Source: a bacterium (GTDB taxonomy: Bacteria; Zhuqueibacterota; Zhuqueibacteria; Zhuqueibacterales; Geothermadaptataceae). From it: a stretch of DNA of 64,000 nt. The stretch covers positions 1 to 64,000 of the forward strand of contig JAJRYV010000085.1 of NCBI GenBank assembly GCA_024275575.1, in the 5' to 3' direction. Below the pieces are notes generated by a model. It made no database searches. It had not been told where the DNA came from and saw only the letters and a list, made by a program, of their open reading frames with translations. Below are positions 29,799-46,313 of this stretch, one piece after another. A program made the position numbers and the translations under genes. Positions within the stretch are counted from its first letter, which is position 1; every line of letters begins with the position of its first letter.

Positions 29799-29800
29799 AT

Positions 29801-30922
29801 TTACCGCTCCCTGCAACTATGGCCCCTGGCCTGCAAGATTTTCTTTGCCTGTGTCCTGGCCTGCTCTGATTCAAAGGAAAGCCGCAGCGTACCACCCTCG
29901 TCTTCCCGCACTTTCAAAACTTCGATGTCGCGAATATTGATATTTTCTGCTGCCAGCAGATTCGCGATACTGGCGATAACGCCGGCATGATCCTGCACAT
30001 CGACGGACAGGTCGAAATGCGGCGTCATAAATCCACGTGTATCCGTCGGAATAGCGAGACGGCTGCGCGCTGATCGGGCAAAGCTTGATTCGAGATCACC
30101 CTTGGCGAGCAAATTTCTGGTGTGCGTCAATACCGCCATAAAACAATCAATTTCCGCCAGAATTTTTGCCCTGTTACCGATGCAGATATCCCGCCAGATG
30201 GTAAACGGGCTTGAGGCAATGCGTGTCATATCGCGAAACCCACCGGCCGCCATTTTCAGGTAGATATCATTTTCCTCGTTTTTTCCAGCGATGTAGAGCA
30301 TAAGGGTAACGGCAAGCATTTGCGGCAGATGGCTCACACCAGCGGCGATTTTATCATGCTCATCCGCTGCCAAAACCAAGATGTGTGCTCCAAGCTTTTC
30401 CAAAAGTGAAGCGAGCTTTTTGACAGCATTCTGTGATTCAAAGCCGTTGGGGGTTAATATATAGATCGCATTTTCAAAAAGATAAGGATCAGATGATTCG
30501 ATGCCCGGTTTTTCGCTACCCGCCATGGGATGCCCGCCGATAAAGATACCGTTCGATTTATCGAAATATTCCCGGGCACACCGCATCATCTCATTTTTAA
30601 TACTGCAAACATCTGAAACGATGGCGCCGTTTTTACACATTTTCGCGACTTGCGGCAGAAGTTTAACAGCCACAGCCGACGGAGTCGCGATAAAAATATA
30701 ATCAGCATCTTTGCAGGATTCTGCCAATATCTCCGGGATAAAACTGTGATCGATGATTTTTTCAGCCAGCGCAAATTCCAACACGTCCAGTTGATCCACA
30801 CCGGTGATCTTTGTTTGCGGGATAAACTTTTTAATCGCCCGGCACAAGGAACCGCCGATGAGCCCAACGCCGATGACTGTTATTTTAATATCCATTTGAA
30901 TAATCGGTTTTAAATATTGCAT
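29801..30922 (-). CDS. tyrA: Prephenate dehydrogenase with C-terminal ACT domain
   Basis: A 373-residue enzyme that oxidatively decarboxylates prephenate to 4-hydroxyphenylpyruvate, the tyrosine branch. The NAD site is VIGVGLIGGSLCRAIK near residue 16, and substrate residues occur in GGHPMAGSEKPGIE. Residues about 295-373 form an ACT regulatory domain (FDLSVDVQDHAGVIASIANLLAAENI), usually the site of tyrosine feedback. A second possible ATG 27 bases downstream (MDIKITVIG) would begin right at the Rossmann fold and may be the true start; neither has a good ribosome site. It lies between DAHP synthase and aroA. Confidence 0.93.
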   Translation of the reverse strand: MQYLKPIIQMDIKITVIGVGLIGGSLCRAIKKFIPQTKITGVDQLDVLEFALAEKIIDHSFIPEILAESCKDADYIFIATPSAVAVKLLPQVAKMCKNGAIVSDVCSIKNEMMRCAREYFDKSNGIFIGGHPMAGSEKPGIESSDPYLFENAIYILTPNGFESQNAVKKLASLLEKLGAHILVLAADEHDKIAAGVSHLPQMLAVTLMLYIAGKNEENDIYLKMAAGGFRDMTRIASSPFTIWRDICIGNRAKILAEIDCFMAVLTHTRNLLAKGDLESSFARSARSRLAIPTDTRGFMTPHFDLSVDVQDHAGVIASIANLLAAENINIRDIEVLKVREDEGGTLRLSFESEQARTQAKKILQARGHSCRER

Positions 30923-30928
30923 TTGAGA

Positions 30929-31942
30929 TTACATGCTTTTATTGATTGCACCGGCGATCAAACGGCATTCGGTCATCAATTGCGCAAACTGCTCCGGATA
31001 GAGCGATTGCGCACCATCGGAAGCCGCGTGATCGGGATCGTTGTGCACCTCGATTTGCAGCCCGTGCGCCCCGGCCGCAACCGCTGCCCGGGCCATTGGC
31101 GCCACCTTGTTTCGGATACCTGTGCCGTGGCTGGGATCAGCGATGATGGGCAAGTGGCTCAACTTTTGAATAACGGGAATCGATGAAATATCCATCGTGT
31201 TGCGCGTATATTTTTCAAATGTGCGAATGCCACGTTCGCAAATGATCACTTGATAATTACCGCCGGCCATGATGTATTCTGCAGACATCAGCGTTTCTTC
31301 GATCGTTGCAGACATGCCGCGTTTGAGTAAAATCGGGGTATTGATTTTTCCCAGACTTTTGAGTAGATCAAAATTTTGCATATTGCGGGCGCCGACTTGT
31401 AAAATATCACAGTATCCCACCATGAGTTCCACCTGCGATTGATCCATGATTTCGGAAACGACAAGCAAAGCATGATCGTCCGCTGCTTTGCGCATTATTT
31501 TCAAACCTTCTTCCCCCAGGCCCTGAAATGAATAAGGAGATGTTCGTGGTTTGAAAGCGCCGCCGCGCAAGATTTTCGCACCCGAAGATTTTACCGCAGA
31601 GGCTATTGCCTGAATCTGTTCCGTACTTTCCACAGCACAGGGACCGGCCATTACAATCACTTCATCGCCGCCGATTTTAACGCCACTGATTTCGATCACT
31701 GTATCCTCCTGCTGAAAAGTGCGGCTCGCGAGTTTGTAGGGCTCGGTAATGCGTACGACCTCGCTGACACCATCAAGAACGAGAAACTCACGCTCATCAA
31801 AGGCATGTTTATCGCCGATGGCGCCGATGACTGTGCGACTCACTCCGGTGGAACGGTGCACATCAAAATTCTTGTCGATCAATGCAGCCACGACATGCTC
31901 TATTTGAGCTGGTGTCGCATTTTTATTCATCACGATGACCAT
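30929..31942 (-). CDS. aroF: DAHP synthase (AroF/AroG type I-beta)
   Basis: A 337-residue first enzyme of the shikimate pathway, joining phosphoenolpyruvate and erythrose-4-phosphate. The N-terminal 75 residues (MVIVMNKNATPAQIEHVV ... HRSTGVSRTVIGAIGD) are the ferredoxin-like regulatory extension of the Thermotoga-type enzymes. The barrel follows, with AGPCAVES, GGAFKPRTSPYSFQG, KRGMS and DPSHGTG. The open frame runs 180 bases further upstream, but GAGGAG seven bases before the ATG at 31942 and the family N-terminus fix the start. It is preceded by a 357-nt gap with repeat-like sequence. Confidence 0.96.
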   Translation of the reverse strand: MVIVMNKNATPAQIEHVVAALIDKNFDVHRSTGVSRTVIGAIGDKHAFDEREFLVLDGVSEVVRITEPYKLASRTFQQEDTVIEISGVKIGGDEVIVMAGPCAVESTEQIQAIASAVKSSGAKILRGGAFKPRTSPYSFQGLGEEGLKIMRKAADDHALLVVSEIMDQSQVELMVGYCDILQVGARNMQNFDLLKSLGKINTPILLKRGMSATIEETLMSAEYIMAGGNYQVIICERGIRTFEKYTRNTMDISSIPVIQKLSHLPIIADPSHGTGIRNKVAPMARAAVAAGAHGLQIEVHNDPDHAASDGAQSLYPEQFAQLMTECRLIAGAINKSM

Positions 31943-32299
31943 TTTTTTCTCCTCAAAAGTAAACCATTTGAAAACAATGGTAATATAACAATCGCTGCTG
32001 AGTTGTGGGTATCCAGTTAACTCCGCAAACAGCAAATATGCCACCCCTCCGGGGTTCCCGATTTTATTTGAGTTCGCAGGGTTATAGTCATTGTACCCCT
32101 TCGGAGTTTTATTGAAAAACAAAGCAGATTTGATTTTTTAATCCCGAAGGGATGGTATAGCTTTGTCAATTTTCCAAAAAGACAGAATTTTCATAAGCCA
32201 TGTAAAGCTTTGCTTTAGGTAAAGGTTGAAAACACTGTGTTAACTCGACAATCAAAGCTGCGACAAAGCAAAACACTTAATTTCCTACGGCTTATTTGC
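31943..32299. other. Repeat-bearing gap within the aromatic operon
   Basis: This 357-nt gap between chorismate mutase and DAHP synthase has no gene. It holds short palindromic words such as CCCCTCCGGGG near 32045, ACCCCTTCGG near 32094 and ATCCCGAAGGGAT near 32142. They look like a cluster of dispersed repeats inserted within the operon. No terminator with T-run was recognised on the minus strand, so read-through is possible. Confidence 0.45.
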
Positions 32300-32599
32300 T
32301 TAGCTATTACTGGACATATCATCACCCAGCCCAAGACTTGCATGTTTTTCCAACAAGCGCGACTCATCGATAATACGTTCGAAAAGCCTTTGAATCGCGC
32401 TTTCCGACAAGGGCCCGGGATTTTTTTCGGCCAGCGCCTGTAAAATCTGTTTCTCACGCTGTGGATCGTAAATCGGCATTGCATGCGCCCGTTTGATGTG
32501 GCCGATCGCCACAGTGTATCCGGCACGGCGGTTGAGCAATTCCAGCAACTCCGTATCCACCGCATCTATTTTTGCCCGCCACTCGGCTATTTCTTTCAT
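32300..32599 (-). CDS. AroQ-class chorismate mutase
   Basis: A 99-residue all-helical enzyme that rearranges chorismate to prephenate. The pattern is typical of monofunctional AroQ-fold mutases: helix 1 WRAKIDAVDTELLELLNRRAGYTVAIGHIKR with the catalytic Arg and Lys positions, then YDPQREKQIL and the helix 3 AIQRLFERIIDESRLLEK. It overlaps the trpA stop by an ATGA junction. No prephenate dehydratase domain is attached, so the phenylalanine branch must be completed elsewhere in the genome. Confidence 0.93.
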   Translation of the reverse strand: MKEIAEWRAKIDAVDTELLELLNRRAGYTVAIGHIKRAHAMPIYDPQREKQILQALAEKNPGPLSESAIQRLFERIIDESRLLEKHASLGLGDDMSSNS

Positions 32600-33399
32600 G
32601 CAATTTCTCCCAAACTGTCTTTGATCATCCAGACAAAGGCTTTTACTTTTTCACAGGCTTCGCCGGTATTTTTAGATTCCGCGATAAGCCGGATTATGGC
32701 GCTGCCGATGATGACGCCATCGCTTTCTGCAGCCAGAGATTTCGCTGTTTCCTGGTTTGAAACACCGAAACCCACGAGAACGGGATGGCGGCTTGTCTTG
32801 CGCAAGCGGCGTAGAAATTGTATCGTCTCCAGCGGCAATTCCCGGCGTTCACCCGTGACGCCGGTTATGGAAACTGCATAAATAAATCCGCTTGTCAAGC
32901 TGTTGATCAACTCGATTCGCGTCACCGGCGTCACCGGCGTGATCAGGTAGATCTGATCGAGGCCATTCGTCCGGCAAAGTCGAGTTAAATCCCCACTTTC
33001 CTCAGGCGGCAGGTCAGGAATGATAAAGCCGTTTGCACCGGCAGCAGCCGCTTCTTCGGCACAGCGTCGCCAACCATATTTCATAAACGGATTGGCATAA
33101 CCCATGAGAATGACCGGGACAGTCGAAAAACAGCGAAATTCCTGCAAAATCGAAAAGACTTTCGCCACCCGCATACCGGCATCCAACGCTTTTTGTGATG
33201 CTTGCTGAATCACCGGGCCATCAGCCTGAGGATCGGAAAACGGCACGCCGAGTTCGATTAAATCTGCGCCGTTCTCTGCGATGGCGCGCAGCAGTGAAAC
33301 CGTGCTGTCCGCTTCCGGAAAGCCGGCCGTCAAATAAATGGAGAGAATTTTTTGTTTTTTCGAGATTTTCTCCACAAGTCTTTCCCGCAAATCATTCAT
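32596..33399 (-). CDS. trpA: Tryptophan synthase alpha subunit
   Basis: A 267-residue TIM-barrel subunit that splits indole-3-glycerol phosphate into indole and glyceraldehyde-3-phosphate. The catalytic Glu is in [17 protein letters not shown], with a second catalytic Asp in the same block, and the loop [10 protein letters not shown] and GFGVSNQE are present. I begin it at the ATG at 33399, with GGGGGAG four bases ahead and an 8-nt overlap with the end of trpB; an open frame extends 54 bases upstream without support. Confidence 0.96.
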
Positions 33400-34621
33400 C
33401 TGCTCCCCCTTTTTGTGCCAGGTCAAACACCGATTCCATGTCTTTATCCCCACGGCCGGAGAGACAGATAACCAGCGATTCTTCTCTCCCCATTTTTCCG
33501 GCTAATTGCACAGCCAAGGCGACGGCATGGGCACTTTCAAGCGCGGGAATAATGCCTTCAGTGCGCGCAAGCAGCGCCATCGCTTCCAATGCCTGTGCAT
33601 CATCGACAGCAGTATAGCAGGCGCGACCGGTATCTTTGAGCCATGAATGCTCCGGCCCGACGCCGGAATAATCCAGACCGGCGGAAATAGAATGCACATC
33701 GGCCACCTGTCCGTCCTCGGTTTGTAGCATATAAGTAAACATGCCATGCAATATTCCCGGTTCGCCGAGGGAAAGCGTTGCTGCATGTTCGCCCTCGTCG
33801 TTGCCACGGCCTCCGGCTTCCACACCGAATAATTTTACTTTTTTATCATCAAGAAATGGATAAAACATGCCCATGGCGTTGGAGCCACCGCCAACACAAG
33901 CGACTACTGCATCTGGCAGGCGGCCTTCCGCTGCCTGGTGTTGTTGCCTCGTTTCTTGCCCGATTATCGACTGAAAATCGCGCACGATCATCGGGTACGG
34001 GTGCATGCCGACCACCGAACCGATACAATAAAAGGTGTTTTTGACATTCGTCACCCAGTCGCGGATAGCTTCGTTGATTGCGTCTTTCAAGGTACGGCTG
34101 CCGGTTTTTACCGGAATGACTTCGGCGCCGAGATATTGCATGCGGAAAACATTGAGCCGCTGTCGCAATGTATCGACTTCGCCCATGTAGACATGGCAAT
34201 CGAGGCCAAATTTTGCCGCCACCGTGGCTGTCGCGACGCCATGCTGCCCGGCGCCGGTCTCGGCGATAATGCGTGTTTTGCCCATGCGCTGGGCGAGCAG
34301 CAACTGGCCCAACACATTATTGATTTTATGCGCTCCCGTATGGTTCAAATCTTCCCGCTTGAGATAGATTTTCGCACCACCGGTTACTGCGGTCAGACGA
34401 TCGGCAAAAGTCAACGGATTAGGCCTGCCGCTATATTGCGAATGCAACTGCGCCAGTATTTTGATAAACTGCAGATCATTTTTCACTTTTTCGTATTCCT
34501 GTGTGAGCTCGGTCACCGCCGGCATGAGAATTTCAGGCACATAGCGCCCGCCGTATTTGCCAAAGCGACCGAATTCGTCAGGAAAACGGGAAGCTTTTAT
34601 TTTGCTCAAATTGCCGTCCAC
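33392..34621 (-). CDS. trpB: Tryptophan synthase beta subunit
   Basis: A 409-residue PLP enzyme that condenses indole with serine to tryptophan. Signatures are [13 protein letters not shown] at the start, the PLP lysine in [22 protein letters not shown], the GGGSNAMG phosphate loop and [10 protein letters not shown] at the end. Both the family length and order fit the TrpB1 type that works with TrpA. The start lies 44 nt inside the end of trpF. Confidence 0.97.
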
Positions 34622-35243
34622 TGCGTTTGTCCTTCACTAAATTAAAAATAAATTCAAGTTTATTGTGATCTTTGATTCCCGGACGCGATTCGACGCCACT
34701 GTTCAAATCGATAGCGTAGGGATTGACCTTCTCCAAAGCCTGTAACACATTGTCGCTATTCAATCCTCCGGCCAGTACGATCCGTAAGTCTGAATTGATA
34801 TTTCCGAGCAATCCCCAATCAAAAACCTCACCCGTGCCGCCATGGCGGTCTTTTTTTTTCGTATCAAACAAAACAGCGCCCGACCTTGTTTTCAGGGCAA
34901 ATAGGTGTTCATCGGAAAATCCGGCGCCGATCTGCGCTGCAGGCAGCACGGTGTATCTATCGAGCGTGTTTAAATATTCGGGCGATAATTCACCGTGAAT
35001 CTGCACTACATCAAATGGAAAAATACGATCTATTGCCTCAATCGTCTGTAAATCAGGCCGGACGCAGACTGCCACCCGGGTGATATTTTCCGGCAAATCT
35101 GCGGCGATTTCAGCCGCTTTTTGTGGCGCTATAAAACGCGGGCTTTTTTCGTAAAAAATAAAACCGAGTGCATCAGCGCCGAGCTGCGCAGCAAACATCA
35201 CATCTAACCTGCGTGTCATGCCGCAAATTTTGATTCTCAGCAT
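34578..35243 (-). CDS. trpF: Phosphoribosylanthranilate isomerase
   Basis: A 221-residue TIM barrel catalysing the Amadori rearrangement of phosphoribosylanthranilate. The catalytic Cys is in IKICGMTR, with [15 protein letters not shown] and the catalytic Asp in [14 protein letters not shown], then [10 protein letters not shown] and [15 protein letters not shown]. The C-terminal tail after the barrel overlaps trpB. The start overlaps the end of trpC by 7 nt. Confidence 0.96.
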
Positions 35244-36034
35244 GATTGGATATAGCTTTTAAATTCAGCCAGCGCCACCCCGGGATCAGGCTGGCGCATA
35301 AAATGACTGCCCACCAAAACGGCATCGACGCCGGCTGCTGCCATGCGCTGCACATCTTCTGCGTTCATTACACCGCTTTCACCCACAAGCACGACACCGG
35401 GCGACACCAGCGGCGCCAGCTTTTCCGTCACTCCGAGGTCGGTGCTGAATGTTTCGAGATTCCGGTTGTTGATGCCGATAATTTGCGCGTTCGCCTGCAG
35501 CGCCCGCTGCATTTCATTCTCATTATGCACCTCGACGATGGCCTGCATGTGCAGGTCGTAGGTGACCGAAAGAAGATTGTGCAATTTATCCGGTGTTAAG
35601 GCCGCCACAATGAGTAAAATCGCATCGGCGCCGGCCGCACGTGCTGCAATAATCTGATAGTCGTCGATGATAAAATCTTTACGCAGAACAGGAATATTGA
35701 CGTTGGCATGTATTTCTTTAATAAATCCAAGACGGCCTTGAAAAAAATGTTCATCGGTGAGGATCGAAAGGGCGTCAGCGCCGTTGCTTGCATACTGTTG
35801 TGCGATTTCCTCGGGGTTGAAATTCTCGCGAATAATACCGGCTGAGGGTGAGCCTTTTTTTATTTCTGCGATGACCGCCACTTCGGAAGAAGCAGTCAGA
35901 GCATCGGCAAGGGAACGGGTATTACGAATATTTTCAAGCTGTGAACAGAGCTCACTAACAGGTTCTTTTTGGCGCTGTTCAGCAATTTCTTTTTGTTTGT
36001 GAGCGAGAATTTTGTGGAGGATGTTGTGGTTCAT
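35237..36034 (-). CDS. trpC: Indole-3-glycerol-phosphate synthase
   Basis: A 265-residue TIM barrel that closes the indole ring. Conserved blocks are AEIKKGSPSAG with the catalytic Lys, DALSILTDEHFFQG, PVLRKDFIIDDYQI, IIGINNRNLETF, LVGESGV and a final VLVGSHFMR. It is monofunctional, separate from TrpF. Upstream, at 23 nt, is an unexpected lipoprotein gene between trpD and trpC. Confidence 0.97.
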   Translation of the reverse strand: MNHNILHKILAHKQKEIAEQRQKEPVSELCSQLENIRNTRSLADALTASSEVAVIAEIKKGSPSAGIIRENFNPEEIAQQYASNGADALSILTDEHFFQGRLGFIKEIHANVNIPVLRKDFIIDDYQIIAARAAGADAILLIVAALTPDKLHNLLSVTYDLHMQAIVEVHNENEMQRALQANAQIIGINNRNLETFSTDLGVTEKLAPLVSPGVVLVGESGVMNAEDVQRMAAAGVDAVLVGSHFMRQPDPGVALAEFKSYIQSC

Positions 36035-36057: not shown

Positions 36058-36429
36058 TTAAAAGATTAATGTCGTATCGACCGATGCGCTGTCCGATTGC
36101 CAGAAATGAAAGGTGATTTCACCTTTTTGCTGTAAATAAAATATGGCAGGTAATTCTCGCTCATCAATCACAGTCGGGCAAATATTGACGTCTTGCCTTT
36201 TAAAAAAGAATTTTAAATAACAATGATTATCAGCCCAATCGATAACTATTTGCTCGAAATCCCAACAAGGGTCAATCAGGTAGACAAGAGCTTTAAATGT
36301 TACTGTTTCCGTATTAGATTCTGTCACTTCAACTTCATAAACTCCAAAAGCTTGTATCCTGCGCTCAGGCTCATTTACACCGCATTGCCAACACATCAAA
36401 CAAATGAAAATACTTAATAAAAACTTCAT
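36058..36429 (-). CDS. Small lipoprotein of unknown function inside the trp operon
   Basis: A 123-residue predicted lipoprotein: N-terminal hydrophobic signal and a candidate lipobox MCWQC with Cys16, then a beta-rich acidic domain that contains further Cys residues (DPCWDF, NHCYLKFF, NICPTV). I recognise no family. It has 23-nt gaps to both trpD and trpC, the same strand and no sign of its own promoter or terminator, so it should be co-transcribed with tryptophan genes although its product leaves the cytoplasm. Either it is a recent insertion or it serves uptake or sensing; the sequence does not decide. Confidence 0.7.
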   Translation of the reverse strand: MKFLLSIFICLMCWQCGVNEPERRIQAFGVYEVEVTESNTETVTFKALVYLIDPCWDFEQIVIDWADNHCYLKFFFKRQDVNICPTVIDERELPAIFYLQQKGEITFHFWQSDSASVDTTLIF

Positions 36430-36452: not shown

Positions 36453-37466
36453 TCAAAATTTTTGTGAGATAGAAACAAGCTTTTGTAATTTTTCATTAGC
36501 CGCACCCGAATCGATACTCAGCGCCGCTTTTTGCGCGCCATCGGCCATGCTTGTCACCCTGCCGCTGACGTATAAACCCGCGCCGGCGTTGGCCAAAACG
36601 ATGTCCCGCGCCGGGCCTTTGGCGCCAGAGAGGACATCGTTCGCCATACGTGCATTTTCCACAGCATCGGCGCCGATAATGCTGCCGGAAGATGCAGTTA
36701 AACCTAAATCTTCCGGAGTGATTTTGTATTCAGTTATTTCACCATTTTTCAATTCCACGATTTTTGTCGGCGCCGAGATGGAAATCTCATCCATGCCGTC
36801 TTCGCTGTGGACCATGAGAATGTGTTCGGAGCCGAGCGCCTGCAGCACTTCCGCCAAAGGGTACAAGAGTGCGGCGACGTAAACACCGATCACCTGCCGT
36901 TTCACTGCGGCCGGGTTGGTGATGGGGCCAAGAATATTGAACACCGTTCGCGCTGCCAATTCCCGCCGCGGCCCGACGGCGTATTTCATCGCCGGGTGCA
37001 GCTTGGGCGCAAAAAGAAATGCGATGCCGGCTTCGTGCACGCAGTGCGACATTTGTCCGGCGGTTAAATTAGTGTTAACGCCGAGTTCGGCCAGTACATC
37101 AGCGCTGCCGCATTTGCTGGAGACCGAACGGTTGCCGTGTTTTGCCACAGGCACACCGGCACCAGCGATGACAAATGCCGAGACCGTTGAAATATTAAAG
37201 GTATGTTTTCCATCACCACCGGTACCGACGATATCAACGGGATCGGTGCTTAAGTCGACGGGCACTGGCGTTGCATTTTTTCGCATGCAGGCTGCAAAAC
37301 CGATTATCTCGTCGACGGTCTCCCCTTTCATACGCATGGCGACGAGAAATGCTGCTATCTGCATCTCGGAAGACTGGCCGGACATGATGATCTGCATGGC
37401 CTCGAAAGCTTCTTCGCGGCTGAGATTTTGCCGTTCCATCGTTTTTTTTAGCACTGTTTTGAGCAT
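36453..37466 (-). CDS. trpD: Anthranilate phosphoribosyltransferase
   Basis: A 337-residue enzyme that adds phosphoribosyl to anthranilate. The PRPP-binding signature is DIVGTGGDGKHTFNIST, followed by KHGNRSVSSKCGSADVLAELG and FLFAPKLHPAMKYAVGPRRELA, all standard for TrpD. Normal family length. It lies 40 nt after trpG, which encodes the glutaminase of anthranilate synthase as a separate polypeptide. Confidence 0.97.
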   Translation of the reverse strand: MLKTVLKKTMERQNLSREEAFEAMQIIMSGQSSEMQIAAFLVAMRMKGETVDEIIGFAACMRKNATPVPVDLSTDPVDIVGTGGDGKHTFNISTVSAFVIAGAGVPVAKHGNRSVSSKCGSADVLAELGVNTNLTAGQMSHCVHEAGIAFLFAPKLHPAMKYAVGPRRELAARTVFNILGPITNPAAVKRQVIGVYVAALLYPLAEVLQALGSEHILMVHSEDGMDEISISAPTKIVELKNGEITEYKITPEDLGLTASSGSIIGADAVENARMANDVLSGAKGPARDIVLANAGAGLYVSGRVTSMADGAQKAALSIDSGAANEKLQKLVSISQKF

Positions 37467-37506: not shown

Positions 37507-38100
37507 TCAACGGTTTTCAGCATTAAATTTCTCTGCAAGATCAAGGAAATTCTGCAGCAATATTTTACCGCAATCCGTCAAAATCGATTCCGGGTGAAAC
37601 TGTACACCGTAAACCGGAAAATGTTCATGCTGCAGCGCCATGATGATGCCATTTTCAGTGCGTGCGGTAATTTTCAGGCAATCAGGTAGCGACTCTTGTT
37701 CGATGATCAGCGAGTGATAGCGCGTGGCGATAAACGGGCTGGGGATATCGGCAAAAATCGTTTTATTGTTGTGAAATATCTCAGAGACTTTGCCGTGCAT
37801 CAATTCCTGCGCCTGCACAACTTTGCCGCCAAAGACCTGGCCGATGGCCTGATGCCCGAGACAAACGCCGAGAATTGGGATTTTTCCTGCAAACTGGTGA
37901 ATTGTCTCCAGTGTGATGCCGGCATTGTCAGGCACACCGGGGCCCGGGGAAAGGAGAAGCGCCGCAGGATTTTTTTTCGCAATACCGGCAATATCGATTT
38001 GATTATTGCGTAGCACCTCCAGTCGGGCGCCAAGTTCCCCGAGATATTGCACGATGTTGAAAGTAAAACTGTCGAAATTGTCGATGACCAGTATTTTCAT
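37507..38100 (-). CDS. trpG: Anthranilate synthase glutaminase subunit
   Basis: A 197-residue class I glutamine amidotransferase that delivers ammonia to TrpE. It has NFDSFTFN at the start, LSPGPG, the nucleophile Cys in GVCLGHQAIGQ and the catalytic His and Glu in GVQFHPESIL. An N-terminal MKILVIDNFDSFT is usual. In many bacteria such a subunit also serves para-aminobenzoate synthase. It is separated from trpE by a 273-nt non-coding gap. Confidence 0.97.
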   Translation of the reverse strand: MKILVIDNFDSFTFNIVQYLGELGARLEVLRNNQIDIAGIAKKNPAALLLSPGPGVPDNAGITLETIHQFAGKIPILGVCLGHQAIGQVFGGKVVQAQELMHGKVSEIFHNNKTIFADIPSPFIATRYHSLIIEQESLPDCLKITARTENGIIMALQHEHFPVYGVQFHPESILTDCGKILLQNFLDLAEKFNAENR

Positions 38101-38373
38101 TTTTACTCTTGTTAATTTGATATGCCACAGAATCTCAGCTCGTTCTTTGCTGCTGCCCTTCCTTATTTACACCTATCGTTTCAAACATGTAGTACAAAGC
38201 TGAGGGAATTACCCCAGATTGACACGGATCAAACACAGACACCATTTACCCATGTTCAATCTGTAACAATCAGGGGCTTATTATATCCACGCATCTGCAT
38301 GCAAATTATCTTTTTACCTCATCATGTAAAACTTGCTTTTCAAGAGCCACCTGACAATACATTGGGACTGACA
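38101..38373. other. Non-coding gap between trpE and trpG
   Basis: This 273-nt gap interrupts an operon in which most junctions are overlaps or under 65 nt. On the minus strand there is a TATAAT-like word near 38279-38284 but no well-spaced -35 box, so an internal promoter is possible but weak. No hairpin with a T-run and no open frame of interest were found. Confidence 0.4.
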
Positions 38374-39858
38374 TCAAAGGCTATCGAGTCCGCCTTCAGC
38401 CATAGCGATAGCGGAGCGAATTGCGTTCGATTTATGCACCGTTTCTTCGAATTCACGTTTGGGAACGGAATCAGCAACGATGCCCGCTCCCGCCTGAAAA
38501 TGTGCTTTTCCGGTACGTAATTCAACCGTGCGTATGGCGATGCAGGTATCAAGATTGCCGGACAAATCGATATAACCCAACGCACCGCCATAGACACCAC
38601 GACAGTCAGGTTCCAATTCATCGATGATTTCCATGGCGCGAATTTTCGGCGTACCGGAAAGCGTGCCTGCAGGGAAACAGGCTTTCAAAGCATCGATGGC
38701 GTCAAATTCCTGTCGTAATTTTCCCCGCACTTCCGAGACGATGTGCATCACATGACTATAGCGCTCAATTTTCATCTTCTCGGTGATTTTAACACTGCCG
38801 AATTCCGCCACCCGGCCGATATCATTTCGTCCCAAATCCATCAGCATGACATGTTCTGCACGTTCTTTTTCGTCAGCGAGCAGCTCTTGTTCCAGACGCA
38901 AATCATCTTCAATGGATTTTCCACGCGGGCGCGTTCCAGCGATGGGGCGTACGGTGATCTCACCATCCTCAATGCGCACAAGCAATTCCGGGCTGGCGCC
39001 GACGATTGCCTGCTTCTGATTGTGCAGATAAAACAAATATGGTGAGGGGTTGACTAAACGCAAAGCACGGTAAATATCGAAAGGTTTTGCCGCCACAGGG
39101 CGAGAAAAACGTTGCGATAGCACTACCTGAAAAATATCACCGGCGCGGATATATTGTTTTGCTCTTTGCACGGCTGAAAAAAAGTCTTTTGGGGTAAAAT
39201 TAGCTTCTACGGTAGCATGGGAATTGGCGGTAACGCTCTTCGCGGAAACCTTGCGACGCAAAGCTTCACGGGTTTCTCGCAAGCGGTGCAGGGCGTCATC
39301 GTATGCTTCGCGAATAATAGCTCCATCCTGCAAAAAAGCGTTGGCGATGATGATAACCTGCTGCCGCAGATGGTCAAATGCGATGATCGTATCGTACAAA
39401 CCAAAAGAGGCGAGAATACGCTTTTCCGGCACCGGGTTTTTCTGCGGTAGTTTTTCAATCAGCCGCACTGTATCGTAACCGAAAAACCCGACAAAACCAC
39501 CACAAAAACGGGGTAAATCGGTACGGGAAACGCATTTGAAATTTTTCAATTTGTGTTGCAGATACGTAAAAATATCCATTTCAAGGATAACCTCGCCGAC
39601 CTCGCTGCTGACAGAAACTGTTTGCCCATCGGTTTCGATCCACTCACGAGGATTGTGACCCAGAAATGAATAGCGTGCCACCTTTTCACCGCCCTCGACC
39701 GATTCCAGTAAAAAACTATCTTCATCGTTTGCACACAGGCGTAAATAAGCGGCGACAGGTGTAAGCATGTCGGCCAAAATGCTTTCAGCCACCGGGATGA
39801 CATTGCCATGCAAAGCTTGTTGTTGAAATTCTGCGAAGGTTTGTGGTTGAATGAGCAT
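38374..39858 (-). CDS. trpE: Anthranilate synthase component I
   Basis: A 494-residue enzyme that converts chorismate and ammonia to anthranilate. The N-terminal LLESVEGGEKVARYSFLG is the tryptophan feedback site of TrpE. The chorismate-binding half carries FQVVLSQRFSRP, PSPYLFYLH, RPIAGTRPRG, HVMLMDLGRNDIGRV and the C-terminal TLSGTPKIRAMEIID and GAGIVADSVP. It is the first structural gene of the aromatic supraoperon. Its ATG has no strong ribosome site and lies 113 nt after the T-run of the leader terminator. Confidence 0.97.
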   Translation of the reverse strand: MLIQPQTFAEFQQQALHGNVIPVAESILADMLTPVAAYLRLCANDEDSFLLESVEGGEKVARYSFLGHNPREWIETDGQTVSVSSEVGEVILEMDIFTYLQHKLKNFKCVSRTDLPRFCGGFVGFFGYDTVRLIEKLPQKNPVPEKRILASFGLYDTIIAFDHLRQQVIIIANAFLQDGAIIREAYDDALHRLRETREALRRKVSAKSVTANSHATVEANFTPKDFFSAVQRAKQYIRAGDIFQVVLSQRFSRPVAAKPFDIYRALRLVNPSPYLFYLHNQKQAIVGASPELLVRIEDGEITVRPIAGTRPRGKSIEDDLRLEQELLADEKERAEHVMLMDLGRNDIGRVAEFGSVKITEKMKIERYSHVMHIVSEVRGKLRQEFDAIDALKACFPAGTLSGTPKIRAMEIIDELEPDCRGVYGGALGYIDLSGNLDTCIAIRTVELRTGKAHFQAGAGIVADSVPKREFEETVHKSNAIRSAIAMAEGGLDSL

Positions 39859-39971: not shown

Positions 39972-40010
39972 AAAAAAAAATCCCACCAGGTGAAACCAGA
40001 ATGGGATTTT
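39972..40010 (-). terminator. Attenuator terminator in the trpE leader
   Basis: On the minus strand AAAATCCCA (40010-40002) pairs with TGGGATTTT (39985-39977), with inner pairing GGT/ACC, followed by nine T residues (39980-39972). It lies 22 nt after the stop codon of the aromatic leader peptide and 113 nt before trpE. Its 5' arm is also complementary to a segment of the leader reading frame, giving an antiterminator alternative. Confidence 0.85.
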
Positions 40011-40066
40011 TATCTATTTTATTTTTTTATTTTCAGTCGAGTTTTGATAGACGTTTCCCACTTCTG
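39997..40066 (-). promoter_or_regulatory. Antiterminator pairing of the trpE leader
   Basis: On the minus strand CAGAAGTGGGA (40066-40056), lying just after the last aromatic codon, is complementary to TCCCATTCTG (40006-39997) with one bulged G. TCCCATTCTG includes the 5' arm of the terminator, so the two foldings exclude each other. A competing early pairing, GTTTTCC (40117-40111) with GGGAAAC (40059-40053), would sequester the antiterminator and leave the terminator free. Confidence 0.7.
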
Positions 40067-40119
40067 CGGTAATAATACCAGATAAAATACCAATAAAAGT
40101 TTTTGGTCATGGAAAACAT
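40033..40119 (-). CDS. Aromatic leader peptide of the trp/aro supraoperon
   Basis: A 28-codon reading frame between the promoter and the attenuator terminator. Codons 8-17 read FYWYFIWYYY, so nine of ten residues are aromatic; Phe2 adds a third Phe (three Phe, five Tyr and two Trp in all). The start is ATG at 40119 with AGGA eleven bases ahead; an in-frame ATG at 40110 would give 25 codons. It ends with a TGA at 40035-40033. The product is expected to have no function of its own: ribosome stalling on these codons when charged tRNA-Phe, -Tyr or -Trp is scarce should favour the antiterminator. Too small to have a family; the evidence is composition and position. Confidence 0.82.
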   Translation of the reverse strand: MFSMTKNFYWYFIWYYYRRSGKRLSKLD

Positions 40120-40167
40120 CAGCGCTGAAATCCTGTAATTTCTATTTTTTTGTATTTATTTTCGCTG

Positions 40168-40196
40168 AAGATAATAATTATTCATTTTCGTGTCAA
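40168..40196 (-). promoter_or_regulatory. Promoter of the aromatic supraoperon
   Basis: Minus strand TTGACA (40196-40191) and TATCTT (40173-40168) with 17-bp spacing. A transcript from about 40161 would start about 40 nt before the leader ATG at 40119 and carry the attenuator. Confidence 0.78.
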
Positions 40197-40299
40197 GCGA
40201 TAAAAAGAAAAACAGATCCTATCGGGGAATAATTTTCTGAAAAAAAATGTATCCATGTCATAAATAAAACCACTCCTTTACCCATTGCAGGATAAAAGA

Positions 40300-41199
40300 A
40301 TGAAATATCGTTTGATGGTTTTTCTGATTTTAATATTTACGGTAACGCAATTATCTGCCGGAGCATGGAACCGCCGACCCGGCAGCTTTTATCTAAAAAT
40401 CTCATCATCATATTTATCAACTTCAAATGAATTCAACTATCTCGGGCAGGAGCGAAAGCTTTTTTTTCCACTCAAAGAAACCTATCCCGAGGCATCCTTC
40501 ATCGATCGCTATTCCAGTGCTTATTTTGAATATGGCCTGCACCCACGGTTCACGCTTATCAGTCAGATCGCTTTCAAATCGATGACGGCCAGCCGCAGAG
40601 AAATCTCCGGCGGCGGGTTGATACAATCTGATATTGAATCACGAACGTTCGGTTTTTCTGATTTGGATATTGGATTGCGTTATGGTTTACATTCCTCGCG
40701 GCTGATTTTTGCCAGTGAGAGCATGGTCAAAATTCCTTTGAATTATGAAAACGACCCCACCGTCGACGCCCCGCCGCTGGGCACGGGTGAAGTCGATTTT
40801 ACCGAAAAACTGTTGATTGCCAAAGGATTTCATCCCGGATATTTTAACGCCTCAATCGGCTACCGCTTTCGTGGCGGCGATCGCTTTAACGATCAAATTG
40901 TCTGGGATGCGGAAACCGGTCTGACACTCGGCAAGGCATTTTTAAAGTTCTTCATTGAAGGGCTGCAAAGTACCAAAACGCCGCCTGATATCTATGGGGC
41001 GCCACGGGTTTCAACGGTTGGCGGGGCGTTACCCACAACGATCACCGGAGATCAGGATATCTACAAAATCAACCCGTCCATCACTTATCAAATCAGCCCA
41101 GATATCGGCATTTCACTCGATATGATTCATATTTTTGCCGGAAAAAACACCATCTCTGGAACCAGTTTTGCACTCGGTTTCGTTTGGGAGAAAAAATAA
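40300..41199 (+). CDS. Outer-membrane beta-barrel-like protein, function unknown
   Basis: A 299-residue protein with a cleavable signal peptide (residues about 1-22, ending LSAGA) and alternating beta-strand pattern with aromatic belts (FYLKISSSYLS, IDRYSSAYFEYGLHPRFTL, DLDIGLRYGLH, FNASIGYRFRGG, GISLDMIHIF) ending in GFVWEKK. This fits a 12-16-strand outer-membrane barrel of the transporter/phenol-degradation-like type. The ATG at 40300 has AGGA seven bases ahead and is preferred to the TTG at 40285. It is divergent from the aromatic operon and its role is unknown. Confidence 0.72.
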   Translation: MKYRLMVFLILIFTVTQLSAGAWNRRPGSFYLKISSSYLSTSNEFNYLGQERKLFFPLKETYPEASFIDRYSSAYFEYGLHPRFTLISQIAFKSMTASRREISGGGLIQSDIESRTFGFSDLDIGLRYGLHSSRLIFASESMVKIPLNYENDPTVDAPPLGTGEVDFTEKLLIAKGFHPGYFNASIGYRFRGGDRFNDQIVWDAETGLTLGKAFLKFFIEGLQSTKTPPDIYGAPRVSTVGGALPTTITGDQDIYKINPSITYQISPDIGISLDMIHIFAGKNTISGTSFALGFVWEKK

Positions 41200-41721
41200 A
41201 AAGACAATGAAATTCATCTCAACACCCGGCCATTATCAGCATTGATATCATCGTCTCCAAATACACTAAAAAATCGACGAAATAAATATGAAGCGAGAAT
41301 GATTATCGGAATGATAGTCGGTATTGTTCGAATATACCCGGCTATTCTTACCCCGCACCAGGCTGCAAATATATTATAAATCCCCCCCGGCGGAAATTCC
41401 ACGCGAACTTTCGTTTTCTGAAATGTAAAAATTCATAATTCACGATTTTATTTAAATTTATTTTCCTTTCCGTAAATAATGTGATTGCCTGTATATAATA
41501 ATACTTTTTCGCTGGTTTATTGTCTATTTTATATCGGGCGGAAGACTGTTTTCTTATGCATTTAGAGGATGCATCCAGATTGGGGTGAGAGTACATTCGC
41601 TTGCTCTTAGTGTTTTCCAGAATAAATTGTATTAATTGGTTTAGCAGGTGACGTTTGCAAATACATGCGCCATTGTATTATCTTTGTTGATGCAATAAAT
41701 CGCATGATTTTTGGAGGAAAA
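41200..41721. other. Intergenic region before the exopolysaccharide locus
   Basis: No gene is supported; two short minus-strand open frames at 41214-41402 and 41348-41596 overlap each other and have no family features. The palindrome-like GCATTTAGAGGATGC near 41558 is minor. The promoter of the flavoprotein gene should lie here but no consensus was seen. Confidence 0.4.
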
Positions 41722-42996
41722 ATGAAAATTGGCATCTTGGGGGCCGGGATTGCCGGCCTGGGAGTAGGACACTCTTTAATAAATGAAGGATGCGATACTT
41801 TTACGATTTATGAAGCATCTGATAAAGTTGGCGGACTGGCGCGCAGTTTTAAATGGCACGGTTTCGACTGTGATCTTGCACCACACCGGCTCTTTACTGA
41901 AGATAATGAAATTCGCGAACAAATGCTGGCTTTAACACCGATGCACAAACTGCGGCGGCGGAGCGAAATTTATATTCGTGGAAAATGGATTCAGGACCCG
42001 GTAAACGGTCTTGAAGTCATCATGAAGTTTTTTCCGGCCGAAAGCATGCGCATTGTCTGGTATTATTTATTTCGTGATAAACACCCGGAAACCAGTTTTG
42101 AAAGCCTGGTTTTAAATCAATTCGGCAAAGGTTTAAACGAATTCTTTTTCAAACCCTATTCTGAAAAATTATTCGGCGTTCCAGCAGACCAGATTTCACC
42201 CGTTTGGGGCAGAAGAAAAATTCGCGTTGGTGGTTTAAAAGATATGCTGCGTCGGAAATCACGCCTTTATTTCAAAGAGTTTTATTACCCGGATCAAAAC
42301 GGTTATGGTGCCATCACTAACGCACTTTTTGCTAAAGTTAAGAATTATGTTCAGCTGGAAACAAGGCTCATCGGTTTGGAAAAAATGCCAGATTCAGACG
42401 GCTATTATTGTACGTTCCAACGGGGTGATGAAATCATCAGCGAAGAATACGATGCTCTCGTTTCTTCACTACCCATCACAATACTGCTGCAAATGCTGGG
42501 GAAACCGCTAAACCTCAGCTTTCGGCCGGCGATCCTGACTTATTTACTGATCAACAAACCACGGATCACCAAAAACCACTGGTATTATATCGCTGATGGC
42601 GAACACAAAATTAATCGTGTGGCTGAGTTTAAAAATTTTGCAGTGTGCGATTTGCCGGAGGATAAGACAGTAATCTGTTGTGAAATCACCAATACGGCCG
42701 GCTATTCCGTCGAAGCCGTCATCAATGAGCTGAAAGATGTCGGGCTTGTCGATCCAAAGGATATTCTGGATTCAAAAGTTGTGAAAATCCCGGAGGCCTA
42801 CCCTATTTATGATTTGCAATATGAGAATCAAATGGAGGTTATCAGAGATTTTTGTTTAACACAGCCAAACTTGTTTTTAATTGGAAGAAACGCTCAGTTT
42901 TTACACCAGGATGTGGATGAGATTTTCGCTACAGGGCTAAACGTAGCGCAGCAACTTCTTCAGCAGAAAGAGCCGGTGAGCGTCAGTATTTCGTAA
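41722..42996 (+). CDS. FAD-dependent UDP-galactopyranose-mutase/amine-oxidase-like protein
   Basis: A 424-residue flavoprotein. The dinucleotide-binding motif GAGIAGLGVG is at residue 7, followed by YEASDKVGGLARSF and an FAD-binding C-terminal end (NLFLIGRNAQFLHQDVDEIFATGLNVAQ). It belongs to the large group of protoporphyrinogen-oxidase/UGM-like proteins common in capsule loci, some of which isomerise nucleotide sugars. The conserved His-rich LAPHRLFTED follows the position used by UGM for substrate. GGAGG five bases before the ATG at 41722 sets the start. It is the first gene before the sugar transferase, so a role in making a sugar donor is likely. Confidence 0.8.
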   Translation: MKIGILGAGIAGLGVGHSLINEGCDTFTIYEASDKVGGLARSFKWHGFDCDLAPHRLFTEDNEIREQMLALTPMHKLRRRSEIYIRGKWIQDPVNGLEVIMKFFPAESMRIVWYYLFRDKHPETSFESLVLNQFGKGLNEFFFKPYSEKLFGVPADQISPVWGRRKIRVGGLKDMLRRKSRLYFKEFYYPDQNGYGAITNALFAKVKNYVQLETRLIGLEKMPDSDGYYCTFQRGDEIISEEYDALVSSLPITILLQMLGKPLNLSFRPAILTYLLINKPRITKNHWYYIADGEHKINRVAEFKNFAVCDLPEDKTVICCEITNTAGYSVEAVINELKDVGLVDPKDILDSKVVKIPEAYPIYDLQYENQMEVIRDFCLTQPNLFLIGRNAQFLHQDVDEIFATGLNVAQQLLQQKEPVSVSIS

Positions 42997-43158
42997 CTTG
43001 GTTGAAAATAATAAAGCAACCCGTTCTAAAGCCCTTGCAAGCGGAGCATTGTGCAAGGTAGTAAATGGCGACCACAATTTTATCTGAAACTATAATTTGA
43101 TCAAACTACGGTCGTACATTTTCATATCCAATTACATCATTTCTAGCAGGGGATAAAG

Positions 43159-43890
43159 ATGGAATGCATCGGGGAAAAACCAGCAAATGGAGCCATCCTT
43201 ACACCTCCTGAGCCGCTCTGGCAAACAACTCTCCGCCGAATCAATGCCACCCACGACCGGCAAAAACCGTATTACCGTTTCTGTAAACGACTGATGGATA
43301 TCATCATTTCACTTTTATTCATCATTTTGCAATTGCCGGTGATTGTCATCATCGCCTGCCTGATCAAGCTCGATAGCTCCGGGCCGATTTTAATCCGGCA
43401 GAGGCGCATCGGCAGGAACAGACGCCGACACAGAATGAGCAACGGTTTTATCGACCGCCGCAAAAGGGATTTGCGCGGTCAACCATTCGTGATGTATAAA
43501 TTCCGCAGCATGCGCTGTGATTCAAAGCTTTATGATGTGAAACCCACATCGATTCATGATGCACGCATCACACGAATCGGGTGCTTTCTACGCCGTTCCT
43601 GCCTTGATGAGCTACCACAATTGATCAACGTATTGCGTGGTGATATGTCACTGGTCGGCCCTAGGCCAGAGCTTGAATTTATCGTCAGGCAGTATGATTA
43701 ATATCAGCAATTGCGACTTGAGGCAAAACCCGGCATTACCGGATTGTGGCAATTGCACGGGTCACGAGCAAAACATATTCATGAAGACGTGCACCTGGAC
43801 CTCGCTTATATCCAAAATCAGTCGTTGCGCATCGATTTAACAATTTTAGTCAAGACGTTAAAATTTGCCGTCTTTTTACGAAATCTATAA
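43159..43890 (+). pseudogene. Undecaprenyl-phosphate sugar-1-phosphate transferase with in-frame TAA
   Basis: A polyprenyl sugar transferase (WcaJ/PglC family) that starts polysaccharide repeats on the lipid carrier. It has one N-terminal membrane helix (KRLMDIIISLLFIILQLPVI), FVMYKFRSM, and the catalytic block SCLDELPQLINVLRGDMSLVGPRPE. A TAA at 43699-43701, after VRQYD, stops the frame. The sequence resumes in the same frame with the conserved C-terminus (YQQLRLEAKPGITGLWQ ... NLF-like end) to a TAA at 43888. The family usually has Glu or a similar residue at the stop position, so one base change (GAA to TAA) explains it. The gene is either recently inactivated, read through, or a sequencing error. 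Confidence 0.85.
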
Positions 43891-44058
43891 CCAGTTAAAA
43901 CGAAATTGCACCAGATTTTGCAGTTTTACCATTTTTTTAGCGAAATAAATATAAACATGTGCGAATTTTCGCAATTCTCCTAATTCGATTGTATTGCTTT
44001 AGTTAAAGCTTTTTTACAAAAAAAGAGAAAATGAACTAAACAGGGATGTCGTTTCTCT

Positions 44059-44778
44059 ATGAAAAGTAAAATTCAAATCTTGCCGTTATTGCTACTGCTT
44101 CTTCAACTGTCTTATTCATGTTCGAAGAATACCCGGAAATCCAGCCCGCTGGACGATAACCCAACAGAACCGGTGCACTCCGATCTGCCGATGTATCAGC
44201 TTGGATACGGAGATACCATCGAAATTCGTTTTTTCAACAATCGTCAATATAACATCACTGTGCCGGTAAGACCGGATGGCCGCATTACACTGGAAAAAAT
44301 CGGTGATGTTTATGTCGACGGTAAAACTCCGGCATATGTGGATTCGGTGATTACAGCCGAGTTTTCCAAATTTCTTAAAATTCCTGAAGTGACGGTCATC
44401 GTAACCGAATTTGGTAATAATCACTTCTATGTTCTCGGCGAAGTCGAGACACCCGGCCGTTTTGAAATTGCGAAAAATATGACAGCATTTCAAGCCATCG
44501 CGACAGCGGGCGGCACCACAAAAGACGCTCAACTTACCAATGTATTATTGATTCGCGATGCAGCTTCGGAGCAACCCGGCGTTCGTGTGTTAAATCTCAA
44601 AAACGTGCAACAACGTTCGGCTGATCTCGCTTACCGGCTCGGTTTGAAAGCAAATGACATCATCTATATACCCAATACGAAAATTTCGGATTTTGCCGGT
44701 TTCATGACCAATATTTACAGCACGATATTGCCGCCGATCGACTCCTATTTAAGAGCAATATTCTGGAGCCGGCTGTAA
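44059..44778 (+). CDS. Polysaccharide export outer-membrane lipoprotein (Wza-like)
   Basis: A 239-residue predicted lipoprotein: signal with lipobox YSCSK, Poly_export domain (YQLGYGDTIEIRFFNNRQYNITVPVRPDGRITLEKIGDVYV) and one SLBB domain (FYVLGEVETPGRFEIAKNMTAFQAIATAGG). Wza-type proteins form the outer-membrane pore for capsule or exopolysaccharide. It is shorter than E. coli Wza, having one SLBB copy instead of two and a short C-terminal end. The Wzc-like and ATPase genes follow. Confidence 0.92.
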   Translation: MKSKIQILPLLLLLLQLSYSCSKNTRKSSPLDDNPTEPVHSDLPMYQLGYGDTIEIRFFNNRQYNITVPVRPDGRITLEKIGDVYVDGKTPAYVDSVITAEFSKFLKIPEVTVIVTEFGNNHFYVLGEVETPGRFEIAKNMTAFQAIATAGGTTKDAQLTNVLLIRDAASEQPGVRVLNLKNVQQRSADLAYRLGLKANDIIYIPNTKISDFAGFMTNIYSTILPPIDSYLRAIFWSRL

Positions 44779-44837
44779 AATACAATTCAGTGATCCGAAA
44801 AATAAAAATGATAATATAACCCGCACCAGGTTTAACA

Positions 44838-46313
44838 ATGAATATTTTGCCTGAAACACCAAAAACACCCGGGAAAAGTATTATTTACCCGCACATTTCC
44901 CGGGAAGAACACCCTAAAAAACAGGTTCTTTATATGCGGCGCGCTTTACAAGTTTTATTCAAATACAAATTTTTTATCGCAGTGCTTTCCCTGCTTGTTT
45001 TTACAATGGTTGCGGTTGCAACTTTTCTTCTGACGCCGACTTATCGCGCTCAATCGACGATCATCATTGAACGCCATGTGGAAACAGAAAAATCGATTCT
45101 ACTCGGTATCGATTCTCAACAAATCCGTGACCTCAAGGATTGGCTCATAGCAGAAATTAAGATTTTGCAGAGCAACCCGGTTCTCGATCGTGTCGTCGAA
45201 GATTTAAATCTCATAGCTATCATTTGTGATTCCAGCGATAGCAGAGAAAAACAACGGTTGAAAGCAATCGATTTTCTCAGACAGAGGTTGAATATCGACA
45301 ATCCACGCAAGAGCAATGTCGTCAATTTGCAATTTGAATATTCCAATGCCGGGCTCGCAGCGCAAATAATCAATTCAATCGTTGCCAATTATCAAAAATA
45401 TCGTAATGAAGTGTACTCTGAATCCAACTCGTACCGTTTTTTTGTCGATCAGATTCGGAATGCAGAATCTGAATTGATTGCCCGGGAGACAAAATTTGCG
45501 CAATTTAAAAAAGAACATGGCATCGTTTCCCCGGATGCGCAAACAGAGATCATTCTGCGCAAACTCAGTGAATATGAACAGTCGCTGACACGAACACGCA
45601 CCTCTCGTATTGGCAAACAGGCTAAACTGGCAATAATTCGCAAAAACCTCGGCAAGGGTAAACTGATCAATATTCCTGTGCTTGAGAGTACGGATGTGCA
45701 GAACCGCTACATGTACTGGGCACGTATTCGTATCGAGTTGCTCCATTTGGAAATGCAGCGCGATAGCTTGCTGATAAAGTACACCGCGGAATATCAGGGT
45801 GTAAAAAATCTGACTACCCAGATTAACGCCACCAAGGAAAAGATGTATGCCGAGGTCAGTCAAATTCTGGAAGAAGAAGATGGGCGAATTGAGGCGCTAA
45901 AAGCGGAAGAAGTTGCGTTGCGTGCGGCTATTAAAGAAATACAAAAAAATTTAACCGACCTTTCTGAAAAGGAAATTAAATTTACCGAGCTCGATCGCGA
46001 AATCGAAAACAAACGTGATATCTATTCACTCCTGCTGAAACAACGCGATGAGGCTGGTTTGTCGCTGGCAAAAGGCCTGCATGGCATTGCAGTGCGACTT
46101 ATCAGCAAAGCAAGCGTACCGCTTGAACCGGTTAAACCGGTCAAAAAACTCAATCTCATACTCGGGTTTTTTCTCGCTATTTTCATCGGACTCGGTGTTG
46201 CCCTGTTGCGCGAATTTTTTGACAACTCTATCGATACGCCTGAAAAAGTTGAGCGCTATGTCGGTATTGCGGTTTTGGCAACCGTCACCGATTGCAGTGT
46301 AAAAGCAAAATAA
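44838..46313 (+). CDS. Polysaccharide chain-length/co-polymerase (Wzc/GumC-like)
   Basis: A 491-residue inner-membrane protein: transmembrane helix at about 45-65, a periplasmic Wzz domain with long coiled coil (residues about 200-400) and a second helix near 440-460 with the Pro/Gly-rich VPLEPVKPVKKLNL entry. It controls chain length and bridges to the Wza pore. The cytoplasmic tyrosine kinase domain is separate, in the next gene. N-terminal basic segment HPKKQVLYMRRALQ is cytoplasmic. AGG stands before the ATG. It follows wza by 59 nt. Confidence 0.9.
   Translation: MNILPETPKTPGKSIIYPHISREEHPKKQVLYMRRALQVLFKYKFFIAVLSLLVFTMVAVATFLLTPTYRAQSTIIIERHVETEKSILLGIDSQQIRDLKDWLIAEIKILQSNPVLDRVVEDLNLIAIICDSSDSREKQRLKAIDFLRQRLNIDNPRKSNVVNLQFEYSNAGLAAQIINSIVANYQKYRNEVYSESNSYRFFVDQIRNAESELIARETKFAQFKKEHGIVSPDAQTEIILRKLSEYEQSLTRTRTSRIGKQAKLAIIRKNLGKGKLINIPVLESTDVQNRYMYWARIRIELLHLEMQRDSLLIKYTAEYQGVKNLTTQINATKEKMYAEVSQILEEEDGRIEALKAEEVALRAAIKEIQKNLTDLSEKEIKFTELDREIENKRDIYSLLLKQRDEAGLSLAKGLHGIAVRLISKASVPLEPVKPVKKLNLILGFFLAIFIGLGVALLREFFDNSIDTPEKVERYVGIAVLATVTDCSVKAK

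Follow-up and report, generated by a model that had tools for sequence, protein, structure and literature searches.

In the trp operon of E. coli, a short translated leader, trpL, carries its control codons ahead of region 2 of an RNA that can form 1:2, 2:3 and 3:4 hairpins. These control codons are Trp codons only (WW), and the genes controlled are trpEDCBA without any aro or tyr genes. The pheA gene of the same organism is likewise preceded by a Phe-rich leader (pheL) and a terminator, one amino acid and one gene being concerned. Enterobacterial ilvGMEDA and thr attenuators read, in a single leader, several amino acids of the pathways sharing the operon, with branched-chain or Thr/Ile codons and thus for another pathway than the one discussed here. 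An aromatic leader, Phe-Tyr-Phe, lies upstream of aroF in the DAHP synthase operon of Corynebacterium glutamicum (the AroR attenuator; Neshat et al. 2014, cited after PMC11802643); as far as that report goes, it names neither Trp codons nor trp genes, and the response is to Phe but not to Tyr. Here we describe a leader with the hairpins of trpL which is very probably a ribosome-mediated transcription attenuator heading a fused trp and aro/tyr operon and sensing a shortage of any of the three aromatic amino acids.

An attenuator with a Phe/Tyr/Trp leader peptide at the head of this supraoperon had been put forward in an original prediction, and anatomy, folding, covariation, the trpL control and the relatives all support it. 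The elements follow each other on the minus strand of the window (the whole 64,000-nucleotide stretch of DNA analysed) in the order promoter, leader ORF, terminator (40010-39972) and trpE:

40168-40196, minus strand: predicted sigma-70-type promoter TTGACA-17-TATCTT, with TTGACA at 40196 and TATCTT ending at 40168
about 40161, minus strand: predicted transcript start, from the position of the promoter
40033-40119, minus strand: leader peptide ORF MFSMTKNFYWYFIWYYYRRSGKRLSKLD, ATG at 40119, 28 codons and TGA at 40033
40069-40098, minus strand: control codons 8-17, F Y W Y F I W Y Y Y
40109-40120, minus strand: region 1 GATGTTTTCCAT, pairing with 40061-40050 as protector 1:2
40050-40066, minus strand: region 2, with an antiterminator side CAGAAGTGGGA (40066-40056) and a protector side GTGGGAAACGTC (40061-40050)
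39997-40006, minus strand: region 3 TCCCATTCTG, the arm common to antiterminator and terminator
39972-40010, minus strand: intrinsic terminator AAAATCCCA...TGGGATTTT, arms 40010-40002 and 39985-39977

The TTGACA/TATCTT promoter with its 17-nt spacing, the 28-codon frame and the run FYWYFIWYYY at codons 8-17 were all found directly as first described. The run comprises 2 Phe, 5 Tyr, 2 Trp and 1 Ile codons and is unique, at least nine aromatic residues in ten codons being found nowhere else in the six frames of the window. Between the promoter and the first structural gene there is, then, a short ORF in which codons for the end products abound, and between this ORF and trpE an intrinsic terminator; as seven of the nine aromatic control codons stand for Phe or Tyr, the leader is not that of a Trp-only attenuator. 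The terminator itself was correctly predicted, but its description as TGGGATTTT plus nine T was wrong, since the T tract (39980-39972) holds nine T in total, four of them inside the stem. An antiterminator, mutually exclusive with the terminator and having one arm in common with it, is also present, its detail now amended to 10 bp with one bulged A (40066-40056 with 40006-39997). What had been missed in an otherwise accurate anatomy is the protector hairpin 1:2, which also masks the start codon of the leader ORF. The gene 5′ of the leader (40285-41199) points the other way, which means that no upstream gene on the minus strand can own the terminator. A second aromatic stretch of the window, EYHYFRFYFFP near 1776, was rejected as a leader for having no terminator downstream; it is flanked by histidine-kinase-like and response-regulator-like genes.

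Downstream of the leader, the supraoperon reads trpE-trpG-trpD-(unknown small ORF)-trpC-trpF-trpB-trpA-aroQ-aroF-tyrA-aroA-aroE:

38374-39858, minus strand: trpE, the first gene of the operon (TIGR00564 over cut-off)
37507-38100, minus strand: trpG (TIGR00566 over cut-off)
36453-37466, minus strand: trpD (TIGR01245 over cut-off)
35237-36034, minus strand: trpC (NF001377 over cut-off)
34578-35243, minus strand: trpF (best match NF002298, 202 bits, cut-off 215)
33392-34621, minus strand: trpB, start codon uncertain (TIGR00263 over cut-off)
32596-33453, minus strand: trpA, start codon uncertain (TIGR00262 over cut-off)
32300-32599, minus strand: aroQ, chorismate mutase (TIGR01807 over cut-off)
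30929-31942, minus strand: aroF, DAHP synthase (NF006421 and TIGR01361 over cut-off)
29801-30922, minus strand: tyrA, prephenate dehydrogenase (NF005107, E 3.6e-94, under the curated cut-off)
28512-29816, minus strand: aroA, EPSP synthase (PF00275 and TIGR01356 over cut-off)
27686-28519, minus strand: aroE, shikimate dehydrogenase (TIGR00507 over cut-off)

It is plausible that the leader controls the whole supraoperon, two larger internal gaps being noted. The gap between trpE and trpG (38101-38373, about 270 nt) is single-copy in the genome and measures about 50 nt in the same-genus relative L055, and the aroQ-aroF gap (about 360 nt) is absent from this relative; neither of the two gaps holds a convincing promoter or terminator. 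Within the aroQ-aroF gap lies a repeat (31965-32215, minus strand) with eight more partial matches in the genome. The small ORF between trpD and trpC (36058-36429, minus strand) encodes 123 residues with a lipoprotein-like start and had no Pfam match. Beside the operon, at 41665-46313, are putative genes for making and exporting polysaccharide (FAD-dependent mutase-like, sugar transferase, Wza-like and Wzc-like).

The leader RNA is structured beyond what its composition would give. Its 190 nt have a folding energy of -40.0 kcal/mol; dinucleotide shuffles give -29.3 ± 3.9 (z -2.7), and 198 of 200 are less stable. The two-state folding check that had been proposed bore out the predicted switch, alternative 2:3 and 1:2/3:4 states being computed. 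In the free RNA, the computed probability is 0.997 for the protector 1:2 and 0.998 for the terminator. With the A site of a ribosome at any of codons 1-16 and region 4 not yet made, the antiterminator 2:3 reaches 0.81-0.98, and from codon 17 onward the calculated ribosome covers region 2. Thus, by computation, a stall at the control codons frees region 2, and a ribosome beyond them does not. When the full-length RNA is taken at equilibrium, the terminator prevails even with a stalled ribosome; antitermination therefore has to work kinetically. In the control, E. coli trpL behaves in the same way: region 3 is sequestered at 0.71 with a Trp-stalled ribosome and at 0.01 both in free RNA and with the ribosome at the stop codon, and at full length the terminator stands at 0.94-0.96, the same equilibrium behaviour as that of the window leader. 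Over 11 fused-operon leaders, mean sequestration of region 3 is 0.88 when stalled vs 0.29 at the stop codon. That the locus is instead a known device working without a leader peptide, such as a T-box, a TRAP-type site or one of the leader families established in Rfam, has a negligible chance in our judgement: an Rfam search returned a weak alignment of 20.8 bits to RF01859 (Phe_leader), but with E = 1.1 this is far under the gathering score of 55 bits, and no other relevant family, Trp_leader included, was among the matches.

On these grounds we infer that the ribosome stalls in vivo, that a shortage of any one of the three amino acids is answered and that the whole operon is read through, by the following steps. 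Transcription would begin near 40161. If Phe-, Tyr- and Trp-tRNAs are all charged, the ribosome would pass codons 8-17 fast and cover region 2 or be released, leaving region 3 free for the terminator, and transcription would end near 39972. If one of these tRNAs is scarce, the ribosome would stall at codon 8, 9 or 10, where it would cover region 1 and expose region 2, so that 2:3 could pair before region 4 exists and RNA polymerase would continue into trpE and the operon. An untranslated leader would fold into 1:2 and the terminator. Phe, Tyr and Trp make their first appearance in three adjacent codons, 8, 9 and 10; starvation for any of them should therefore stop the ribosome at nearly one place, which would make the leader an "any of three" sensor. 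Over evolution, the codon content would have been adapted to the genes controlled. It had also been suggested that the closing Tyr triplet may weight the response. This is probably not the case, since a stall at codon 17 would cover region 2, Tyr starvation would stop the ribosome first at codon 9 and the closing Tyr codons would be reached only after the earlier ones have been passed.

Comparison with relatives, which had been proposed as a check, gave the expected outcome on both counts, the aromatic run being kept in the same genus and the antiterminator covarying more widely. L055 (genome G069) keeps both promoter hexamers and the distance between them, the run (here NFYWSFIWYY), regions 2 and 3 and the terminator, and in its protector 1:2 a G-C pair has become C-G by compensatory change; the stretch from promoter to ORF is not conserved between the two, nor is the position of the leader start codon. 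For covariation, a hand-anchored alignment of the six-pair core in 10 distinct sequences was used. The antiterminator covaries: the 2:3 core has 91.7% standard pairs and 7 double-sided changed cells (score 0.307), a score equalled by none of 500 shuffles, and the terminator 3:4 core has 5 double-sided changed cells, with 7 of 500 shuffles as high. The combined p for 2:3 complementarity over shuffles is 1.5e-9 in fused-operon leaders, 1e-13 in trp leaders and 1e-12 in aro leaders.

We then consider the leaders of the whole phylum, sampled in 82 genomes, 48 of which gave TrpE matches. Aromatic leaders followed by terminators precede 31 of the 34 trpE-first loci with upstream sequence; L062, L067 and L068 have no leader. 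Fused trp and aro operons occur in the window and at L055, L056, L058, L059, L063, L064 and L066, with leaders such as YFWRNWYWYYY, AYWFWYWYYY and RFYWSYWYW; every fused leader has Tyr as well as Trp codons, and L060 is the single one that lacks Phe. Leaders of trp-only operons read, for example, NFWWWW, WWWW or CWWRQWW. Where trp and aro genes stand in separate operons, aroQ-aroF-tyrA-aroA-aroE has its own leader and terminator, with runs such as NFYNYYYFYFYF, FFYYFYFCF and SSFYYFYF in which Trp is nearly absent. Counted in the densest 12-codon window, the totals are F16 Y38 W30 for the fused class (10 leaders, that of the window excluded), F13 Y14 W75 for the trp-only class and F78 Y85 W3 for the aro class. 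Among complete operons, 8 are fused with F-Y-W leaders vs 14 trp-only with Trp leaders, with zero exceptions where a leader is present. Moreover, in all 14 genomes having both a trp and an aro leader the Trp share is higher in the trp leader, so that genome base composition cannot be the cause. By sequence, the specificity of the leaders agrees with the make-up of their operons throughout the phylum. One exception is L089-L091, where an aroF-like gene lies behind trpA and the leaders are Trp-only. In family f3, a TrpB-like gene (NF009057) lies inside the aro operon and the leader WFWYWYYHISGG carries Trp codons; no close TrpE was seen in this family (L179, L198, L199). The nearest named TrpE, at 54%, is that of a 'Candidatus Latescibacterota' MAG, in which (L004 and L024, pieced from two contigs) a leader GYWWYW stands with trpE-trpG-trpD-aroF-trpC; this arrangement is possibly an intermediate state. 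Separately, pheA of family f4 has Phe-rich leaders with terminators of the E. coli pheL kind, SSFYFSFFFFGPRSGARRL and HFRFFFFYFFGSEPGS, at L196 (6996-7160) and L197 (G027). A leader candidate for the window genome's own pheA, the Phe-rich ORF FFKRRFFIFFFK, was rejected: no terminator lies between it and pheA, and its codons apparently come from the T tract of a terminator further upstream.

The survey bears on whether all three amino acids are sensed. A real attenuator could effectively respond to one or two of them, for instance to Trp as the rarest codon or Tyr as the most numerous, the remaining aromatic codons being bystanders. In fact, the Phe-Tyr-Phe leader of C. glutamicum answers Phe and not Tyr in the available account (PMC11802643), hence the presence of a codon need not equal sensing. 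According to theory, sensitivity drops with a falling fraction of regulatory codons, so that mixed control regions are less sensitive to each amino acid (PMC1183508), and a mixed run is predicted to trade sensitivity for breadth. Nevertheless, Tyr and Trp persist in all fused leaders and Phe in all but one, Phe/Tyr versus Trp content tracks operon content phylum-wide, Trp codons are nearly absent where there are no trp genes and Phe/Tyr codons are few in leaders of operons without aro genes. We therefore hold a sensor of one or two amino acids to be unlikely, about a quarter of the weight being left to it. The same data weigh against a leader that does not sense charged tRNA at all, whether through nascent-chain arrest, a trans-acting peptide or an untranslated ORF arising incidentally from a U-rich leader whose terminator is constitutive. 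Leader peptides with functions in trans are known (peTrpL, PMC7298713), and the window leader is AT-rich with a weak and distant ribosome-binding site. Yet the peptide sequence is not conserved aside from its aromatic content, TGG (Trp) codons are not U-rich, codon content follows the operon genes inside single genomes, and the placement of region 2 and its pairing with region 3 are maintained, which makes such a mechanism very improbable. The attenuator sensing all three amino acids remains our reading; its anatomy, alternative pairing, conservation, covariation and codon-to-operon match are observations from sequence and computation.

How the leader acquired its codons may be read from the TrpE tree, where operon type and leader type each switch twice, on identical branches; an independent-pairs test on this tree has two pairs only and hence no statistical power. 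Genus g4 (family f2), with a trp-only operon that lost its aro genes and a Trp-only leader, is nested within a fused clade. An HMM built from the part after the run in two g4 leaders found two fused sister leaders at 29 bits, shuffles reaching at most 4. The g4 leader is thus recognisably homologous to the sister F-Y-W leader, with the same RNA switch and other codons. An HMM of 18 Phe/Tyr aro leaders gave 21-35 bits for the five fused leaders of f4 and 21-26 bits for the three leaders of f3; held-out aro leaders scored 9-42 bits, a range that takes in both. The f4 and f3 leaders accordingly scored as aro leaders do and most likely, judging from this resemblance, descend from one, with Trp codons gained. 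Among the Trp-only leaders of the other families, only those of f16 matched this HMM, with no more than 11 bits. A descent of f1 leaders, that of the window included, from aro leaders was dropped, the HMM evidence (3-12 bits) being too weak. As regions 2, 3 and 4 repeat one word, shared HMM scores could partly be convergence. A fairly likely scenario, then, is that one attenuator scaffold has been re-tuned by codon replacement as operons fused and split: a separate aro operon would have a Phe/Tyr sensor and a separate trp operon a Trp sensor, fusion would give a three-amino-acid OR-gate (in f4 apparently by Trp codons entering an aro leader), and loss of aro genes would leave Trp only with the RNA switch retained.

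These relatives form a natural experiment, in which the same kind of switch occurs with codons for Trp, for Phe and Tyr or for all three, matched to the controlled genes. Two questions thereby become open to direct test: in what way regulator specificity changes as operons join and split, and what a multi-input attenuator costs in sensitivity per input. Moreover, a leader of 30 codons can predict operon content in uncultured and fragmented genomes.

A search of open-access literature brought up no account of an attenuator that reads Phe, Tyr and Trp jointly. The uORFC-13-1 motif (PMC8632094) is also a predicted upstream ORF with a terminator on aroF; it differs in coming from Acholeplasma and environmental sequences, in having at least one Phe codon only and in having no trp operon. 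C. glutamicum AroR, as far as its published account describes it, resembles the Phe/Tyr leaders of the phylum's separate aro operons. As in E. coli trpL, the terminator of the window leader lies ahead of trpE and the stall profile is equal in the same calculation, whereas the stop codon comes soon after the Trp codons in trpL and 11 codons past the run here. On this reading the mechanism is classical leader-peptide attenuation with a predicted specificity for three amino acids, and its wider interest lies in the phylum-wide matching of leader to operon.
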